This document shows positions 5,874-21,554 of a DNA stretch of 62,482 nucleotides, in pieces (positions within the stretch are counted from its first letter, which is position 1; each line of letters begins with the position of its first letter). The notes beneath the pieces are model-generated. The model did no database searches and was not told where the DNA came from. It was given only the letters and a program-made list of their open reading frames with translations. The DNA lies in assembly GCA_022450665.1 (NCBI GenBank), contig JAKUPQ010000005.1, forward strand, positions 1-62,482. The letters run 5' to 3'. Made by a program: the position numbers and the translations under genes. This stretch comes from Alphaproteobacteria bacterium (GTDB lineage Bacteria; Pseudomonadota; Alphaproteobacteria; Rickettsiales; VGDC01).

Positions 5874-7682
5874 ATGACACAGCCGCTATATCCCGCACAA
5901 ATAGATTGGAACGAGCAAGGCCTGCCTATATCGCGTCACTATGGTGATGTATATTTTTCGAGTGAAGGCGGGTTGGACGAAGCGCGACACGTTTTTTTAG
6001 CGGGCAACAACATAGAACATCGCCTCGCTCATGAACCTGTATTTACTGTGGGTGAAATTGGTTTTGGCTCAGGGCTGAATTTTTTGGCGTTGTGGCAAAT
6101 GTGGGAAAAAATCGCCCCAGTTAATGCGCGCCTGTGCTTCTTTTCGGTAGAAAAACATCCGCTGCAATTAGAGGATATGGCAAGAATTCATGCGTTGTTT
6201 CCTGAGCTTTTGCCTTATAGCAAAGCACTTTGTAATGCTTTGCCACTGCAAGTGCCCGGCTATCATCGCATATATCTGGCAAATAATCGAATTCAGCTTA
6301 CGCTTATGTATGGGGATGCGCTGGATATGTTGCAACAACAGGATGCTAAGGCGGATGCATGGTTTCTCGATGGCTTTGCACCGCGCCTGAATGTAGAGCT
6401 GTGGAGCAATGCGATGACAGAGCAGGTTTGCAGATTATCTGCAAGCGGCGCAAGTTTGGCCACGTTTTCTACTGCATCATCAACATGTGATGCCTTATCT
6501 GCCGCTGGATTCGCTCTCAGCAAGCGCGCTGGTTTCGGGCGCAAAAAATATATGCTTACAGGCATAGCCCCGCAAAAAGATAGCGATGCGAAAAAACAAC
6601 CACCACCCAAAAGCGTTACAGTTATTGGTGCCGGACTCGCAGGAGCATCACTGGCACATGCACTGGCTAAGCGAGGTTGCAATGTGGTGGTGAAGGAAAA
6701 GCACCAGCCAGCGCAAGGAGCTTCAGGGAATCCCTCGGCAATATTTTATCCGGGAGTAACGGTGGGGTGGCAGCCACTAAGCCAACTATATTATATGGGG
6801 TTTTCTCACAGTCTGGCAATCTTGCGCGACTTAAGCACAAAGCATACAATTGCTCATGAGCAATGCGGCATGATTTTGTTTCCTAAACCGCAAGAAGTGA
6901 AAGAACGGCACCCAAAAATTCTTGCTACCATGCAGCCGCACCGTGATATTTTTTATGGGGTGAGTGCAAAAGAGGCCAGTGCATTAACAGGGTTGCCTAT
7001 GCCGGAGCTGGGGTTATACTTTCCGGCGGCAGGATGGGTGCATCTGGGGCAACTGACCCATGCCTTACTTGAGCAGCCTCAAATTACAATTGAAGCAGGT
7101 TCTGCTGTTGATGTTTTGCCGCATTACAGTACCAATGAGCCAGTTATACTATGCAATGGATGGCAAGCGGCAGATTTATACCCTGCACTGAAAGATAGTA
7201 TGCATATTGTAGGTGGGCAGATAACTTCACTAACAAAATCTACGGTGCTCAGCAAATTACGCTGTGTTGTGTCTTACGGAGGATACGCTACACCGGCCAT
7301 TGCAGGGCAGTATCATTTGGGTGCCACCTATGAAAAAATGGTGGATACTGCCGAGATAACACCAGAGGGGCATGCCCGAAATATTAATAAGCTTACGGCG
7401 TTTTTGCAGGAAATGATGCCTGATCCACCCTCTACGCAGTCTATTCCACCCAATACCATTCAGGGCTGGGCAGCGTTACGTACGGCAACTCCCAATCGCA
7501 CACCGTTGCTGGGGAAGCTGGATGAAGGATTATATGCCAGCCTTGCCCATGGATCTCGCGGATTGCTGTCATGCGGCTTATTTGGTGAACATATCGCATC
7601 TGTGATCTATGGAGAGCCATTGCCCATTCCACGCGACATTGTAAAAGTTCTTGCGGTTGATAGATATATGCACAAGGCGTGA
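5874..7682 (+). CDS. mnmC: Bifunctional tRNA U34 modification enzyme MnmC
   Basis: Carries out the last two steps of mnm5(s2)U34 synthesis in the tRNA wobble position. The N-terminal half (about residues 1-235) is the SAM-dependent methyltransferase, with the binding motif GEIGFGSGLNF near residues 60-70 and Trp-Phe-Leu-Asp-Gly-Phe-Ala-Pro as catalytic region. The C-terminal half is an FAD-dependent oxidoreductase starting with VIGAGLAGASLAHALA near residue 250, and ends with a HGSRGLLSCGLFGEHIAS block typical of this domain. Both domains are complete, so this is the fused form as in Escherichia coli, slightly shorter (602 residues). It converges on the AlkB-like gene. Confidence 0.95.
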   Translation: MTQPLYPAQIDWNEQGLPISRHYGDVYFSSEGGLDEARHVFLAGNNIEHRLAHEPVFTVGEIGFGSGLNFLALWQMWEKIAPVNARLCFFSVEKHPLQLEDMARIHALFPELLPYSKALCNALPLQVPGYHRIYLANNRIQLTLMYGDALDMLQQQDAKADAWFLDGFAPRLNVELWSNAMTEQVCRLSASGASLATFSTASSTCDALSAAGFALSKRAGFGRKKYMLTGIAPQKDSDAKKQPPPKSVTVIGAGLAGASLAHALAKRGCNVVVKEKHQPAQGASGNPSAIFYPGVTVGWQPLSQLYYMGFSHSLAILRDLSTKHTIAHEQCGMILFPKPQEVKERHPKILATMQPHRDIFYGVSAKEASALTGLPMPELGLYFPAAGWVHLGQLTHALLEQPQITIEAGSAVDVLPHYSTNEPVILCNGWQAADLYPALKDSMHIVGGQITSLTKSTVLSKLRCVVSYGGYATPAIAGQYHLGATYEKMVDTAEITPEGHARNINKLTAFLQEMMPDPPSTQSIPPNTIQGWAALRTATPNRTPLLGKLDEGLYASLAHGSRGLLSCGLFGEHIASVIYGEPLPIPRDIVKVLAVDRYMHKA

Positions 7683-14224: not shown

Positions 14225-14583
14225 TGAGGAAGTGGATTGCTTTGGTGTTGCTTAGCTTGATTGTAGCCGGGTGTGTAGAAAAACCTAAAGCAGCAGGGCC
14301 TTGGGAGAAGAATAGGCCAAAATGTGAAAAAATGGCCGAAGATAAGGGATACAAAAAGTTTACTGTAGCCGATTATTTCCTTAGTTTACTAGGTTTTGAT
14401 CGTGGACAGGATGCAGGACTAATGGTTGCAACATGCATGAAAGCTGCTAACCCCACCCCTAAAGCAGAAGTATGGCCGCAACTTGAATTTAAACGACAAA
14501 ATCAAAATGAGGAAGCTCCAGAGCCGATGATTCCTCATTTGCAAGAAATGCTAAACGAAGGACTAGATACCCATGGACTATAA
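14224..14583 (+). CDS. Small putative lipoprotein of unknown function
   Basis: A 119-residue protein starting at the ATG that overlaps the preceding stop. It has a short charged N-terminus, a hydrophobic segment and a lipobox ending Val-Ala-Gly-Cys near residue 18, so it should be lipid-modified and anchored in the envelope. Two further cysteines (in PKCEKMAED and in VATCMKAA) could form a disulphide. The rest is hydrophilic. I recognise no family. Its 3' end overlaps the acyl-CoA dehydrogenase start by 11 bases, so it sits tightly inside a catabolic operon whose other products are cytoplasmic. That context is odd and gives no clear role. Confidence 0.72.
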   Translation: MRKWIALVLLSLIVAGCVEKPKAAGPWEKNRPKCEKMAEDKGYKKFTVADYFLSLLGFDRGQDAGLMVATCMKAANPTPKAEVWPQLEFKRQNQNEEAPEPMIPHLQEMLNEGLDTHGL

Positions 14584-15718
14584 TCTCCCCGAACTTCACT
14601 CCATGTTGCGCGACACTGTGCGCGCCTTCGCTGAGAAGGAAATCAAACCTGTTGCCCATGAGCTGGACGAAAAAGAGCAGTTTTCACCTGAGCTTACACG
14701 CAAAATGGGCGAAATTGGTTTGTTTGGTATTGTTGTGCCTGAGCAATATGGTGGGCAGGGGATGGATTATCTGGCCTATGCGGTGGCATGCGAAGAGTTA
14801 AGCCGTGTTGATGGCTCCCAAGCGGCAACCATTACCGCCCATAACTCGCTGGGCGTGGGGCCGTTGTATTACTTTGGTTCTGAAGAGCAAAAGAAGAAAT
14901 ACTTGCCACAGCTTTGCACCGGCGAGAAACTTTGGGCGTTTGGCCTGACCGAGCCGGGTGCCGGAAGTGATTCGCGTGGCAGCAAAACCACCGCCAAAAA
15001 AGTGGATGGCGGGTGGAAAATTAATGGCAGTAAAATCTTCATCACCAATGGCTCCTGCGACATGAATGCAGGGGTGACGGTGCAGGCGGTAACAGGCGAA
15101 AAAGCCCCAGGAAACCCCGAGCTGACCTGCTTTATTGTTGAGCGCGGTACCAAAGGCTTTAGCGCCAAAACCATGCACGGCAAGATGATGTGGCGTAGCA
15201 GCGATACGTCGGAGCTGTATTTTGACGATGTGTTCGTACCTGATGAAAATATGTTGGGAAAACAAGGCAGTGGTAGCAGCCAAATGCTTGCCACCCTCGA
15301 TTGCGGTAAAATCGGCATCGCGGCCATGGGGCTGGGTTGTGCGCAAGGCGCATACGAAGCGGCGCTGGCCTATGCCCAAGAGCGCAAGCAATTTGGTAAG
15401 CCGTTGATCGCCTTCCAAGCTATTGCCTTCAAACTCGCCGACATGGCGATGAAAATCGAGCTAGGCCGCAACATGCTCTATAAAACCGCATGGATGAAAG
15501 ATCAAGGCCAAGTCATTACCAAAGAAGCAGCGATGGCCAAGCTTTATTGTTCCGAAATCGCTAGAGAAGTAGCTGACGAAGCAGTACAAATCCACGGCGG
15601 CTATGGTCTTATGAAAGAATACGACGTAGAGCGCTTCTACCGCGATCAGCGCCTGCTGCAAATAGGCGAAGGCACCAGCGAAATTCAACGCATAATCATT
15701 TCGCGGAACTTGGTTTGA
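14573..15718 (+). CDS. Acyl-CoA dehydrogenase, short/branched-chain type
   Basis: FAD-dependent alpha,beta-dehydrogenation of an acyl-CoA, passing electrons to electron-transfer flavoprotein. The 381-residue protein has LTEPGAGSDSRG and WKINGSKIFITNGS in the middle domain, the RKQFGKPL motif and C-terminal GGYGLMKEYDVERFYRD. The catalytic Glu is Glu366 in IGEGTSEIQR. By position in a leucine-type cluster one would call it isovaleryl-CoA dehydrogenase, but that enzyme characteristically has Ala here (GAGTSE) and its base elsewhere. The present protein instead matches the short-chain or 2-methylbutyryl-CoA dehydrogenase pattern. It may still act on isovaleryl-CoA. The ATG overlaps the lipoprotein gene; the gene precedes a small orphan gene and mccB. 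Confidence 0.9.
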   Translation: MDYNLPELHSMLRDTVRAFAEKEIKPVAHELDEKEQFSPELTRKMGEIGLFGIVVPEQYGGQGMDYLAYAVACEELSRVDGSQAATITAHNSLGVGPLYYFGSEEQKKKYLPQLCTGEKLWAFGLTEPGAGSDSRGSKTTAKKVDGGWKINGSKIFITNGSCDMNAGVTVQAVTGEKAPGNPELTCFIVERGTKGFSAKTMHGKMMWRSSDTSELYFDDVFVPDENMLGKQGSGSSQMLATLDCGKIGIAAMGLGCAQGAYEAALAYAQERKQFGKPLIAFQAIAFKLADMAMKIELGRNMLYKTAWMKDQGQVITKEAAMAKLYCSEIAREVADEAVQIHGGYGLMKEYDVERFYRDQRLLQIGEGTSEIQRIIISRNLV

Positions 15719-15721
15719 CTC

Positions 15722-16138
15722 ATGTTTAAAAGCATAATTCTAACTATCATTGTGGTTTGGGGCATATTTGCACTTCTCCCCGTAAAGGAAAGCGGAACAA
15801 TAACGCTTTATTTTAAATTTTGTGATGATTGGGTGCATGATCTTTATAGCTGTAGTTCTGACGTAGCTTTTATTTCTACTGCTTATAAAGTAGATTACGA
15901 TAAACAATGGGTTGTTTCTCAAACTACTTCTGCACGTTACGATGGTTGCTCGGTGTATAATGTAGATAATTGGTCATGTAAAGGGCGTAAGGTAGATTTA
16001 TCTATGAGCAATGGTAGGTTAATAGATAGGAACGATTCAAAAGCTATAAATATAAATGGAAAGGAATCTGTGTACCCCAAATACTTGCAAACATCCGCTT
16101 TAGCTTATTATGTATTTAAACTGAAATCTTTATTTTAG
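15722..16138 (+). CDS. Hypothetical membrane-anchored or secreted protein
   Basis: A 138-residue protein with an N-terminal hydrophobic segment (residues 4-20, IILTIIVVWGIFALLPV) that could be an uncleaved anchor or signal, then a mostly polar, Tyr/Ser/Asp-rich domain with five cysteines (near residues 34, 44, 77, 84 and surrounding positions) that may form disulphides outside the cytoplasm. I recognise no family. It lies three bases after the acyl-CoA dehydrogenase stop and 18 bases before mccB, both of which belong to one pathway. Its DNA is visibly richer in A and T than its neighbours. It looks like a lineage-specific insertion into the operon. No ribosome-binding site of its own is obvious. 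Confidence 0.6.
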   Translation: MFKSIILTIIVVWGIFALLPVKESGTITLYFKFCDDWVHDLYSCSSDVAFISTAYKVDYDKQWVVSQTTSARYDGCSVYNVDNWSCKGRKVDLSMSNGRLIDRNDSKAININGKESVYPKYLQTSALAYYVFKLKSLF

Positions 16139-16156
16139 AACTAGATAAATCAAATC

Positions 16157-17770
16157 ATGGACACACTTACCTCTACCATCAACACATCTTCCCAAACATT
16201 CAAAGACAATGCGGCCCATAATCAGGCGCTACTGGACGAGTTACGTCAGCGGTTGGCTATGGTCAAACAAGGCGGGGGCGAAAAATCGGTTGCCCGGCAC
16301 GTGTCGCGGGGCAAGTTTATTGCCCGTGAGCGCATCACGCATATTTTGGATGACGGATCGCCGTTTTTGGAAATTGGTGCGCTGGCAGCGTGGGAAATGT
16401 ATGAAGGCGGTGTGCCAAGCGCGGGCGTGGTGGCTGGCATTGGCCGTGTGCATGGCGTTGAGTGCATGTTGGTGGCCAACGATGCCACGGTGAAGGGCGG
16501 AACGTATTTTCCAATGACGGTGAAAAAGCACCTCCGCGCACAGGAAATTGCCCTCGAAAACCGCTTGCCCTGTATCTATCTGGTAGACAGCGGCGGCGCA
16601 TTTTTGCCCATGCAAGACGAGGTGTTCCCTGATAAAGAGCATTTTGGCCGCATTTTTTACAATCAGGCGCAAATGTCTGCCGCAGGTATTCCGCAAATTG
16701 CGGTGGTGCTGGGCAGTTGTACCGCTGGCGGCGCGTATGTGCCGGCTATGTGTGATGAATCGGTGATTGTGAAAGGCAACGGTACGATATTTTTGGCTGG
16801 CACACCATTGGTGAAAGCCGCCACGGGCGAAGAAGTGTCATCACAGGATCTGGGCGGTGCAGAAGTGCATACGGGCGTGTCTGGTGTGGCCGACCACTAC
16901 GCCGAAGATGAGCAAGACGCTTTGTTGATTACGCGAAATATTGTAGAGAGCCTGAATTACCAAACGGCTAAAAAGCCCTTGCTGAACCATGCCTTGCCAC
17001 CGCTATACGATGCGCAAGAGATATACGGAGTGCTACCTCAGGATACCACCCGCACCCCATTTGATATACGCGAGGTAATCGCACGTATTGTGGATGGCTC
17101 AGCGTTTCAGGAATTCAAAAAGAATTATGGCACCACTATCGTGTGCGGTTTTGCACGTATTCACGGGCAAATGGTCGGTATTGTCGCAAATAACGGTGTG
17201 TTGTTTTCGGAAAGCGCCGTAAAGGCAACGCATTTTATCGAGCTATGCGGTCAGCGCAAAATCCCACTGGTGTTTTTGCAAAATATTACCGGATTTATGG
17301 TGGGTCGCAAATACGAAGCTGAAGGTATTGCTAAGCACGGCGCAAAAATGGTGATGGCAGTAAGTAATGTAAAAGTACCCAAGTTCACGGTAGTGATCGG
17401 GGGTTCGTATGGTGCAGGTAATTATGGTATGTGCGGACGCGCCTATAGTCCGCGCTTTTTGTTCATGTGGCCGAATGCCCGCATTTCTGTGATGGGCGGT
17501 GAACAAGCGGCAGGAGTATTAGCAACTGTACGTCAGGATGCGCTGAAAAAGTCTGGAAAAACTCCCATGACCGAGCAGGAAATTGCTGATTTTAAACGCC
17601 CAACGCAAGAGCAGTTTGATAAACAATCGAGCGCCTATTATTCTACTGCGCGTTTATGGGATGATGGCATTATCGACCCCGCGCATACCCGCGATGTTTT
17701 GGGGCTTGCAATCAATGCCAGCCTGAATAAAGAAATTGATGACACCCAATATGGTGTGTTTAGAATGTAG
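16157..17770 (+). CDS. liuB: Methylcrotonyl-CoA carboxylase, beta (carboxyltransferase) subunit
   Basis: Transfers CO2 from carboxybiotin to 3-methylcrotonyl-CoA, the fourth step of leucine breakdown. The 537-residue protein begins with the family's Asn-x-x-Ala-His-Asn-x-x-Leu region, contains [22 protein letters not shown] (split over the start of the N-terminal carboxyltransferase domain), [33 protein letters not shown] and, in the second half, [15 protein letters not shown] and [16 protein letters not shown], both hallmarks of the MCC rather than the propionyl-CoA type. It is complete, in the usual size range, and ends in TAG. It is the partner of the biotin carboxylase and biotin carrier products encoded downstream. 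Confidence 0.95.
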
Positions 17771-17811: not shown

Positions 17812-18600
17812 ATGAAACATCTCATTTGTGAGATTAAAAATGATGTGGCAGATGTGCGTCTAAACCGTCCCGAAGTGCATAATGCTTTCAACGAAACACT
17901 TATCAAAGAGCTTACAGAAACGTTCCGCGATTTAGGCGCTAACGATAAAGTGCGAGTTATTGTGATGTCAGGCGAAGGAAAGTCTTTTTGCGCCGGTGCC
18001 GATTTGAACTGGATGAGCCAGATGAAAAGCTATTCCATGGAGCAAAACATAGAAGACAGCCGCAAACTGGCAGAGATGTTTCACACTATCAATGAATGCC
18101 CTAAAGTGGTAATTGGTAAAGTTCATGGCGCTGCACTTGGCGGCGGAGTTGGCTTGGTTTCGGTATGCGATTATGCCATTGCCACCATAGATGCAAAATT
18201 TGGATTGACTGAAGTGCAGCTTGGCTTGGTGCCAGCAGTAATATCGCCATTTGTAGTGGCAAAAATGGGAGAATCTTATGCGCGTGTGTGGTTTATGTCT
18301 GGCGATAGATTCACGGCAGATCGTGCAGAGCACATGAACCTGATTCATGATGTGGCACATGATAATGCTACGCTGCAATTGCGCACCCGAAGCGCTATCC
18401 GCGATTTTATGCGTGCTGGCCCCACCGCAGCACGCGAAGCGAAAAAACTCATTGCCGATGTGCAAACTATGAAAGGTGAGCGTGAAAACCTTATTGCGCA
18501 CACCAGCAAAGTAATTGCCGAGCTTCGTGTGAGTGACGAAGGGCAAGAGGGCATGGAAGCCCTGCTTACAAAAAGCAAGCCAAGTTGGAATAAAGGGTAA
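17812..18600 (+). CDS. liuC: Methylglutaconyl-CoA hydratase (enoyl-CoA hydratase family)
   Basis: Hydrates 3-methylglutaconyl-CoA to HMG-CoA. The 262-residue crotonase-fold protein has the CoA-binding loop SFCAGADLNWM with the downstream MKSYSMEQNIEDS stretch found in this subfamily (as in human AUH), the second oxyanion loop GAALGGGVGLVSVCD and the catalytic-helix TEVQLGLVPAVISPFV. AAG/GGAAAGGAT before the ATG provides a ribosome-binding site. It lies between the two carboxylase subunit genes, as in liu operons, which supports the specific assignment over generic enoyl-CoA hydratase. Confidence 0.92.
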   Translation: MKHLICEIKNDVADVRLNRPEVHNAFNETLIKELTETFRDLGANDKVRVIVMSGEGKSFCAGADLNWMSQMKSYSMEQNIEDSRKLAEMFHTINECPKVVIGKVHGAALGGGVGLVSVCDYAIATIDAKFGLTEVQLGLVPAVISPFVVAKMGESYARVWFMSGDRFTADRAEHMNLIHDVAHDNATLQLRTRSAIRDFMRAGPTAAREAKKLIADVQTMKGERENLIAHTSKVIAELRVSDEGQEGMEALLTKSKPSWNKG

Positions 18601-18603
18601 GTT

Positions 18604-20103
18604 ATGGCCGGACGTATCCGCAAAATTCTGATAGCTAATCGCGGCGAAATAGCTAACCGCATCATTAGCACCTGCCGCGATTTGGGCATCGAAACCGTAT
18701 GCGTTTTTGCCGAGGCAGACCGCGATTTACCGTTTGTGTCCGAAGCAACCCAATGCCACAGTCTTGGTAGTGGAAGTTTGGCTGAAACATATATCAATAA
18801 ACAAAAGCTGATTGATATTGCACAAGCCACCGGCGCAGATGCCATACACCCAGGCTATGGGTTCTTATCAGAAAATGCTGATTTTTGTAAAATGGTAGAA
18901 TCTGCCGGGTTGATTTTTATTGGCCCGACAGCAAAAATTATTGCCTTAATGGGCGATAAGATCGCTTCGCGAGACACCGCAGAAAAAGCAGGTGTGCCGC
19001 TTATTCCGGGCTATAACGGTGATAAGCAGGATATGGAAACATTACGGGCTGAAGCGGATAAAATCGGCTATCCGGTGCTGGTAAAAGCTTCTGCCGGCGG
19101 CGGCGGAAAAGGTATGCGTGTGGTGGAAAAAGCTAAGGATTTTGCTGGCGCTTTAGAAGCCGCGCAATCCGAAGCACAAAATGCTTTTGGCGATTCGCGT
19201 GTGTTTGTCGAACGCTACATTACCAAACCGCGCCATATTGAAGTGCAGGTCTTTTCAGATACTCATGGTAACCATTTGCATTTGTTCGAGCGGGAGTGTT
19301 CAATTCAGCGTCGCCACCAAAAAATTATCGAAGAATCGCCATCCCCCGCTTTAAATGCCGAATTACGCGAAGAAATATGTGCAACAGCAGTAAATATTGC
19401 CAGCCATATTTCTTATCGTGGTGCAGGAACGGTGGAGTTTATTCTCGATGAAGATGGGCGTTTTTACTTTTTGGAAATGAATACACGCTTGCAGGTAGAG
19501 CATCCCATCACCGAGCTGGTGACCGGACAGGATTTGGTGCAATGGCAGATTATGGTGGCAGATGGTAAGCCATTGCCATTACGACAAAAAGACCTTGTGC
19601 AAAATGGCCACGCAATAGAAGTGCGGATTTATGCCGAAGATCCGGATAATAATTTTCTGCCCACCACTGGCACTATCGAACGTGTTGGCACGCCATGCGC
19701 GCAGCATTTGCGCTTTGAAAATGGCTATGCGGATGGCAATCAAATTACGGTTAACTACGACCCAATGCTGGCAAAAGTAGCGGTTTGGGCTGAAGAGCGT
19801 ACACTTGCCGCCGATAAGCTACGTCATGTGCTGGATGATGTGTGGTTTGCCGGAGTGAAAACCAATCGCAGTTATTTGCAACGTGTTTTAGCGCATCCGT
19901 CATTTATTGCAGGGGATACGTTCACTAGTTTTGTAGTTACACACGAGGCTGATCTCAAACAAAAGCCTATTGCTAATGATATACAGGCCGCCATGATTGC
20001 CGGTTTCGTTTTAGCGCGCCCGGAGCGGCAACGTCATCAGGCTTCGTCACAACCATATAACCCGTGGGTAGAACCCGTGCTCAGTGGTTTCAGGAACGCA
20101 TAG
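18604..20103 (+). CDS. liuD: Methylcrotonyl-CoA carboxylase alpha, biotin carboxylase part (split by in-frame TAG)
   Basis: ATP-dependent carboxylation of biotin. The 499 residues hold a complete biotin carboxylase: KILIANRGEIANRI at the start, HPGYGFLSENADF, the ATP-grasp Gly-rich loop KASAGGGGKGMR, the catalytic RRHQKIIEESP and EMNTRLQVEHPITE. Usual alpha subunits are about 660 residues and continue into the BT and biotin-carrier domains. Here a TAG at 20101-20103 ends the protein, and the next gene starts two codons later in the same frame with exactly the missing part. Read through, the product would be about 670 residues, a normal full length. Whether this is natural gene fission, a nonsense mutation or a sequencing error is not decided. 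AGGAA at 20092-20096 favours re-initiation. Confidence 0.88.
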   Translation: MAGRIRKILIANRGEIANRIISTCRDLGIETVCVFAEADRDLPFVSEATQCHSLGSGSLAETYINKQKLIDIAQATGADAIHPGYGFLSENADFCKMVESAGLIFIGPTAKIIALMGDKIASRDTAEKAGVPLIPGYNGDKQDMETLRAEADKIGYPVLVKASAGGGGKGMRVVEKAKDFAGALEAAQSEAQNAFGDSRVFVERYITKPRHIEVQVFSDTHGNHLHLFERECSIQRRHQKIIEESPSPALNAELREEICATAVNIASHISYRGAGTVEFILDEDGRFYFLEMNTRLQVEHPITELVTGQDLVQWQIMVADGKPLPLRQKDLVQNGHAIEVRIYAEDPDNNFLPTTGTIERVGTPCAQHLRFENGYADGNQITVNYDPMLAKVAVWAEERTLAADKLRHVLDDVWFAGVKTNRSYLQRVLAHPSFIAGDTFTSFVVTHEADLKQKPIANDIQAAMIAGFVLARPERQRHQASSQPYNPWVEPVLSGFRNA

Positions 20104-20106
20104 ATT

Positions 20107-20616
20107 ATGAAAAAAATATTTGTAATTAACGGACAAGAAGTGCCGGTTGAAAATATGGTCATTCGCGCAGGGCAGGTTAGCTTTACGTTGGATGGGGTGG
20201 ATTATGCTTTTTCAGGAGCGCCGGATGCGCATGGCGAATTCACTATTAACAGCCAACACAGCAATTACAATGGTTTTGTAGGCAAGCGTACACAGCAAGG
20301 CATGCAAACGATTTTTATGCATGGCGGTATCGAAGCACATATCGACCAACATGGATTAACCCGCAACAAAAGCCAAGCCGGTAGTAAAGGTGCGGCACAT
20401 ACGGCGCCCATGCCTGGTACGATACAAAAAATACTGGTAACGCCCGGACAAGTGGTAGAAGCAGGTGAGCCACTGGTAATCATGGAAGCCATGAAGCTGC
20501 AGCTGAATATCGAAGCCGCCTACGCAGGTACCGTAGAAGAGGTATTATGCGAAACAGGTGGGCTGGTGAGTGACGGTACGTTGTTAGTTGATGTAAAAAG
20601 TAACGATGCACAATAA
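20107..20616 (+). CDS. Methylcrotonyl-CoA carboxylase alpha, BT and biotin-carrier part
   Basis: A 169-residue protein in the same frame as the preceding biotin carboxylase gene. Residues 1-95 (with IRAGQVSFTLDGVDYAF) look like the BT beta-barrel that holds the alpha subunit onto the beta subunit. Residues 100-165 are a biotinyl domain with APMPGTIQKILVTPGQVVE and the biotinylation motif MEAMKL, Lys130 being the expected biotin site. Its ATG follows AGGAA at 10 bases. The stop is followed after 20 bases by the HMG-CoA lyase gene. Free carrier subunits are known in acetyl-CoA carboxylase; for methylcrotonyl-CoA carboxylase fusion is the rule, so this is unusual. Confidence 0.88.
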   Translation: MKKIFVINGQEVPVENMVIRAGQVSFTLDGVDYAFSGAPDAHGEFTINSQHSNYNGFVGKRTQQGMQTIFMHGGIEAHIDQHGLTRNKSQAGSKGAAHTAPMPGTIQKILVTPGQVVEAGEPLVIMEAMKLQLNIEAAYAGTVEEVLCETGGLVSDGTLLVDVKSNDAQ

Positions 20617-20636: not shown

Positions 20637-21554
20637 ATGATGACAGTGACACCTAAACGGGTGAAAATTGTTGAAGTAGGTGCGCGGGATGGCCTGCAAA
20701 ATGAAAAAAAGCCCATCGCCACCCAAGATAAATTTACTTTCATTAAAATGCTGGCCGAAGCTGGGCATAAGAATATAGAGCTAACCAGCTTTGTACGACC
20801 TGATGCGATTCCTCAGTTATCTGACGCACAGGAATTAATGGCATTGGTCAACGCTCATCCTTTCGCGCCTGATATTCAGTTTTCGGCGCTGGTGCCAAAC
20901 ATGAAGGGGTTGGAAAAAGCGATTGAAACGGGAGTGAAAGAAATTGCTCTTTTTGTTGCTACTTCCGATAGCTTTTCAAAACGTAATATCAATGCCACTG
21001 TTGATGAATCATATGCCCGTATTGCACCGGTAGCAAAAGCAGCCTTAGATGAAGGACTGCGTGTACGCGGATACCTCTCTACTGTGTTTGGTTGCCCTTA
21101 TGAAGGCACTATTGCTACAAATGCGGTAGTAGATGGTTGTAAGCGACTCGAAGATCTGGGAGTGTACGAAGTATCCTTAGGGGACACGACCGGTGTAGCC
21201 ACTCCGCTTCAAGTACAAACTCTTTTGGATGTGCTACTGATTAACATCACACCCTATAAATTGGCAATGCATTTTCATGATACTCGGGGAATGGCTGTGG
21301 CTAATACCCTCGCTGCATTGGACATGGGAATTGTTAACTATGATGCCTCTGCCGGTGGTTTGGGAGGATGCCCTTATGCTAAAGGCGCAAGCGGTAATGT
21401 AGCTACAGAAGATTTGGTGTATTTATTTCACGCGATGAATATTCAAACCGGAATTGATATGGATAAGCTTATTTCAGCCTCGAAATTCATGCTTGATAAG
21501 CTAGATGTCGAAAGCCCGTCTAAGGTGCATCGCGTATTTGCGAATAACGGCTAA
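20637..21554 (+). CDS. mvaB: Hydroxymethylglutaryl-CoA lyase
   Basis: Cleaves HMG-CoA to acetyl-CoA and acetoacetate, the last step of leucine breakdown. The 305-residue TIM-barrel protein has the metal- and substrate-binding VGARDGLQNEK near the start, the barrel strand SLGDTTGVATP, HFHDTRGMAVANTLAAL with metal ligands, and the signature GGLGGCPYAKGASGN with catalytic Cys245. Two adjacent ATGs (20637, 20640) are possible. It is the end of the core leucine block. A 97-base gap without a clear terminator separates it from the next acyl-CoA synthetase, which may have its own promoter. Confidence 0.95.
   Translation: MMTVTPKRVKIVEVGARDGLQNEKKPIATQDKFTFIKMLAEAGHKNIELTSFVRPDAIPQLSDAQELMALVNAHPFAPDIQFSALVPNMKGLEKAIETGVKEIALFVATSDSFSKRNINATVDESYARIAPVAKAALDEGLRVRGYLSTVFGCPYEGTIATNAVVDGCKRLEDLGVYEVSLGDTTGVATPLQVQTLLDVLLINITPYKLAMHFHDTRGMAVANTLAALDMGIVNYDASAGGLGGCPYAKGASGNVATEDLVYLFHAMNIQTGIDMDKLISASKFMLDKLDVESPSKVHRVFANNG

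Follow-up and report, generated by a model that had tools for sequence, protein, structure and literature searches.

The window analysed here is a 62,482-nucleotide stretch of contig JAKUPQ010000005.1, from an alphaproteobacterial genome of the order Rickettsiales, and the carboxylase, hydratase, lyase and dehydrogenase genes described below lie on its forward strand. The carboxyltransferase (CT, beta) subunit of 3-methylcrotonyl-CoA carboxylase (MCC) is encoded at 16157..17770 (537 amino acids). Its closest PDB matches are 9tps_A of the L. pneumophila MCC series (cf. 9tqc; 9.5e-235) and 3u9r_B, the beta subunit of PaMCC (8.9e-231), whereas the PCC beta subunit 3n6r_B is matched at 2.2e-71 only. 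Next to it lies an enoyl-CoA hydratase family gene (17812..18600), from its context probably a methylglutaconyl-CoA hydratase, and further downstream is the gene for hydroxymethylglutaryl-CoA (HMG-CoA) lyase (20637..21554; NF004283, 405 bits with a cut-off of 246). An acyl-CoA dehydrogenase of the short-chain type is positioned 5' of the carboxylase genes (14573..15718); isovaleryl-CoA as its substrate is not settled. Between this gene and the beta subunit, the operon also contains a 138-residue ORF (15722-16138) that is hydrophobic near its N-terminus and matches no NCBIfam family. The lyase, the hydratase and the dehydrogenase together form a leucine-degradation neighbourhood, and the placement of the split subunit in a leucine/isovalerate-type operon agrees with its assignment to MCC alpha by an earlier reading of the sequence alone. 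A promoter and terminator scan gave nothing above chance.

The two ORFs that correspond to MCC alpha lie between the hydratase and lyase genes. The first (18604..20103) encodes a biotin carboxylase (BC) of 499 residues, identified by Pfam and a PDB match. Biotin_carb_N, CPSase_L_D2 and Biotin_carb_C all score above their cut-offs and reach residue 444, so that the carboxylase is complete, with intact ATP-grasp and C-terminal domains; the motifs AGGGGxGM and EMNTRLQVEHP are invariant in the BC alignment of 27 rows. The second ORF (20107..20616) encodes 169 residues that comprise predicted BT-barrel strands and a biotin carrier domain (BCCP), with a Biotin_lipoyl match at residues 99-162 (61.7 bits, cut-off 22.1) and the biotinyl motif MEAMKLQ. 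One gene of the biotin/lipoate ligase family is present in the genome. The junction reads TTC AGG AAC GCA TAG ATT ATG: the TAG stop at 20101..20103 is followed in frame by the ATG at 20107, and AGGAA (20092..20096), a candidate ribosome-binding site within the F-R-N codons, stands 10 nt ahead of that ATG. These letters are as the sequence-only reading gave them, and its expected fused length of about 670 residues is matched by a read-through product of exactly 670, for which the closest PDB entry is the MCC alpha subunit of P. aeruginosa (3u9s; 1.6e-174). An MCC-type beta subunit, an intact BC and a biotinyl lysine motif are thus all present. However, BC and BCCP, which are fused in one alpha chain in MCC as it has been described (PMC3199775), are encoded by two separate ORFs in the window and in its six relatives, and we therefore file the enzyme as an MCC variant rather than as a standard member.

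To place the break, we aligned the split BC with fused MCCs and predicted the structure of the read-through product with AlphaFold2 (27 rows, mean pLDDT 82, pTM 0.76); the top fold match of the model is human MCC alpha. The model has a helix at 458-470, a loop at 471-501 and eight strands within 502-580 (502-508, 511-521, 524-529, 532-538, 545-550, 554-562, 568-572 and 577-580), and the stop takes the place of residue 500, directly before barrel strand 1. The barrel part is of low confidence (pLDDT about 45-60), and the model shows the hook as disordered. The BCCP half folded alone gave a low-confidence model (mean pLDDT 65), which was left unused. In the BT domain of geranyl-CoA carboxylase, a long helix lies inside an eight-stranded barrel and is linked to it by a 'hook', the C-terminal segment of which starts with a conserved Trp buried in the beta subunit (PMC4673880). 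The corresponding central helix in the window is alanine-rich (BC residues 458-470; 19975..20013) and, by alignment to fused MCC, is followed by a hook loop that ends in the motif GFRNA (residues 471-499; 20014..20100). The hook Trp is Trp488 (codon 20065-20067), conserved in at least 90% of the 27 rows. Fused MCCs read DPxSPWxxxxGWRLN at the aligned stretch and continue into the barrel sequence, and the split BC of the window reads NPWVEPVLSGFRNA and stops. Alignment and predicted secondary structure thus assign the central helix to the BC chain and the barrel strands to the other chain, so that the break is predicted to fall inside BT, after the hook, with helix and hook on the BC side and all eight strands on the BCCP side. 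This position replaces the BC-BT linker, where the sequence-only reading had put the break and which alignment and model reject; nor does each half comprise whole domains, since BT is divided between the chains.

The same break is found, at the same position of the protein, in six further genomes, with different stop codons and junctions. An order-wide search of 55 genomes with the read-through protein as the query yielded the window and four broken genomes: G001, the only genome of the same family, and G004, G009 and G030 of the same order. Two more cases, a Bacteriovorax MAG (L037) and an unplaced alphaproteobacterial MAG (L039), came from a scan of named genomes, so that seven genomes in two phyla share the break. 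Most of the rest of the order carry a fused BC-BCCP protein that is 37-51% identical, and this protein is PCC-like wherever a neighbouring carboxyltransferase is visible. Measured from the end of the stop to the next start, the offset is +3 in the window, -1 in G001 and G004, -8 in G030 and G009, and +8 in L037. In L039 it is +966 nt with another ORF in between (6489-7454), which is hydrophobic and spans 172 codons from stop to stop. Only one of the six adjacent junctions, that of the window, is in frame; the other five are out of frame. The BC proteins of five of the seven members end in GFRNA (window), RFRNA, GFRNA, GFRVA and GFRNI, and all seven keep the biotinyl motif EAMK and an alanine-rich BT helix. 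The break therefore recurs more than chance would give. Unbroken genes in all close relatives, the outcome that the sequence-only reading had named as speaking against it, were looked for, and the close relatives proved to be broken too. Every clade member whose source is named is a MAG, and no member is known as a cultured strain.

Both genes are under purifying selection. Between the window and G001, pN and pS are 0.17 and 0.82 for BC, and 0.38 and 0.77 for BCCP; pN/pS alone is quoted, since dS is saturated between these two genomes. In both genes divergence is higher at third codon positions than at the first two, and the barrel part of BT is weakly conserved (32% identity between the window and G001). 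Seen in the window alone, two ORFs that are in frame, lie one codon apart and sum to a normal length, in a gene that is fused in most of the class, could be taken for an ordinary MCC alpha gene interrupted by a recent nonsense mutation or by a sequencing or assembly error. This reading is highly improbable, because six other genomes share the break, five with adjacent out-of-frame junctions and one with separated genes, and because selection acts on both halves; the junctions of the relatives already refute a pseudogene or an assembly error. The same junctions bear on a programmed read-through of UAG that would yield the full-length subunit. The reading frame of the window is indeed continuous except for one UAG. 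However, the adjacent relatives have TGA or TAA together with frame changes, so that no fused chain is possible there, and the genes are 966 nt apart in L039. Read-through cannot be the general rule when adjacent junctions are out of frame; the out-of-frame and separated junctions rule it out, and for the clade it is very unlikely, with a negligible share of the probability. The in-frame relation in the window is the part of the observation that arises by chance, at one in three, and since only this junction is in frame, read-through is not needed.

A further possibility is that the BC and BT-BCCP proteins serve another acyl-CoA carboxylase, acting on acetyl- or propionyl-CoA, and not MCC. In the 99% complete genome of the window, we found two biotin carboxylases and two carboxyltransferases, the MCC genes described here and a PCC-type pair on contig C42, and a search for AccABCD found none. 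With no more than two genes each for BC and CT, and no AccABCD, a supply of malonyl-CoA by these proteins is also conceivable, and BC and BCCP, as free-standing proteins, could in principle serve more than one enzyme. Against this, the neighbouring CT matches MCC far better than PCC and stands alongside the hydratase and HMG-CoA lyase genes, and the second carboxylase on C42 is of the PCC type; Rickettsia likewise lacks AccABCD, and PCC has been proposed as its ACC replacement (PMC5615194). We consider service to another carboxylase improbable. The BC-BCCP gene on C42 also appears broken, but the interruption is a run of 10 N (L001, 1490-1499) with a similar stretch repeated on both sides, that is, a scaffold gap and not a second split gene.

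The sequence-only reading had called the architecture uncommon, which holds within the class and does not hold in general. In a class sample of 385 genomes, 190 have a strong match, and among the matches listed all except the window's own are fused open frames; apparent stops in two fused class genes (G326 and G120) disappeared when the sequences were read, both genes being unbroken. A search of 398 genomes from the phylum found no additional clade member at E <= 1e-176, a cut-off that would also miss distant members such as G009. Matches in plasmid records are all below 60% identity, with no close relative among the matches listed. The split architecture is rare among proteobacterial MCCs. 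Beyond the clade, many Bacteroidota have BC proteins of 488-511 residues that end 3-13 residues past the Trp, and such proteins are also present in Chlorobiota, Ignavibacteriota, Planctomycetota, Chloroflexota and Zixibacteria. Proteins of the Flavobacteriaceae type (479-485 residues) end past the helix region and have no Trp, and those of Bacillota (446-453 residues) have neither helix nor hook. In a Poseidoniales archaeon MAG (L097), an MCC-type CT, 69% identical to the beta subunit of the window, is encoded close to a split BC and a BCCP; these lie outside the clade, and Phe takes the position of the hook Trp.

The seven split BCs form one clade with an SH-aLRT value of 100. When all 35 split rows were held together, the likelihood was better than that of the free quick tree (p-AU 0.65); the test therefore does not reject that the split/fused difference arose once, and a fission within the clade is not demonstrated. 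A tentative reading, which we hold to be possible but doubtful, is that the clade represents a three-component MCC lineage of at least two phyla with a two-chain BT, derived from an old stock of split-type acyl-CoA carboxylases and not from breakage of a fused gene. If so, one fusion or fission event at the hook would explain the whole sampled family.

The best explanation of the locus, held with good confidence, is a functional and evolutionarily stable alpha 'subunit' of MCC made of two polypeptides, with BT rebuilt in trans. The working two-piece alpha proposed by the sequence-only reading is upheld in so far as the pieces are conserved and very probably both functional; it is amended in that the pieces are not whole domains. 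The first gene would give a biotin carboxylase whose C-terminal tail consists of the BT helix and the hook. The second, probably translated by coupling at the adjacent stop and start, would give a protein in which the BT beta-barrel and the biotin carrier domain are joined. The AGGAA lies inside the conserved FRN codons in the window and in G001, where it is 6 nt ahead of the ATG, and this placement fits translational coupling. By analogy with the enzyme described next, the tail helix very probably inserts into the second protein's barrel to form the BT domain in trans, and the hook Trp would dock on the carboxyltransferase subunit, so that BC, BCCP and CT would be held in one complex with no covalent link between BC and BCCP. 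In the two-subunit pyruvate carboxylase of Methylobacillus flagellatus (MfPC), a BT-like domain is formed from the C-terminal helix of alpha and the sheets of the beta subunit, and deletion of the helix or the A465R substitution abolishes the holoenzyme (PMC5059739). We infer expression, stoichiometry and activity of the window's enzyme, and also its trans-assembly, the last from this precedent together with the alanine-rich tail helix of all seven members.

We compared the window with known carboxylases. Fused MCC alpha of P. aeruginosa (3u9s) and human (8j7d) has the same order of BC, BT helix, hook Trp, barrel and BCCP and the same MCC-type beta subunit, but it is one polypeptide, while in the window there are two, with the break where the hook ends. 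The two-subunit pyruvate carboxylase resembles the window in having an alanine-rich helix at the end of its BC chain and the barrel strands on another chain (PMC5059739). Its BT-like domain is known to assemble in trans, as the domain of the window is proposed to do, but its other chain also holds CT, in an alpha2beta4 enzyme, whereas the CT of the window is a third protein. In three-component acyl-CoA carboxylases, for example the ACC/PCC of Sulfolobales, BC, BCCP and CT are likewise three polypeptides (PMC3199775); those enzymes are ACC/PCC and the enzyme of the window is MCC, and the likeness is one of subunit count. BCs of 488-511 residues in Bacteroidota, Chlorobiota, Ignavibacteriota, Planctomycetota and Chloroflexota end 3-13 residues past the hook Trp, as in the window, and several are directly followed by a BCCP gene. 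These BCs are about 46-52% identical to that of the window; many have no BCCP or CT nearby, and the CT, where seen, is mostly PCC-like (about 30-34%) and not MCC.

A literature search, to which subscription papers were mostly inaccessible, found no account of an MCC alpha that is split. The three-component MCC would be new, and the kind of split architecture is already known. For annotation, genes for 499-residue 'acetyl-CoA carboxylase biotin carboxylase' proteins with a helix-hook tail may be of the MCC type. A natural MCC whose break coincides exactly with the hook's end would mean that MCC too can form its BT domain from two chains, and it would provide a natural system for testing how the hook and a covalent link between BC and BCCP contribute to the assembly of large carboxylases.
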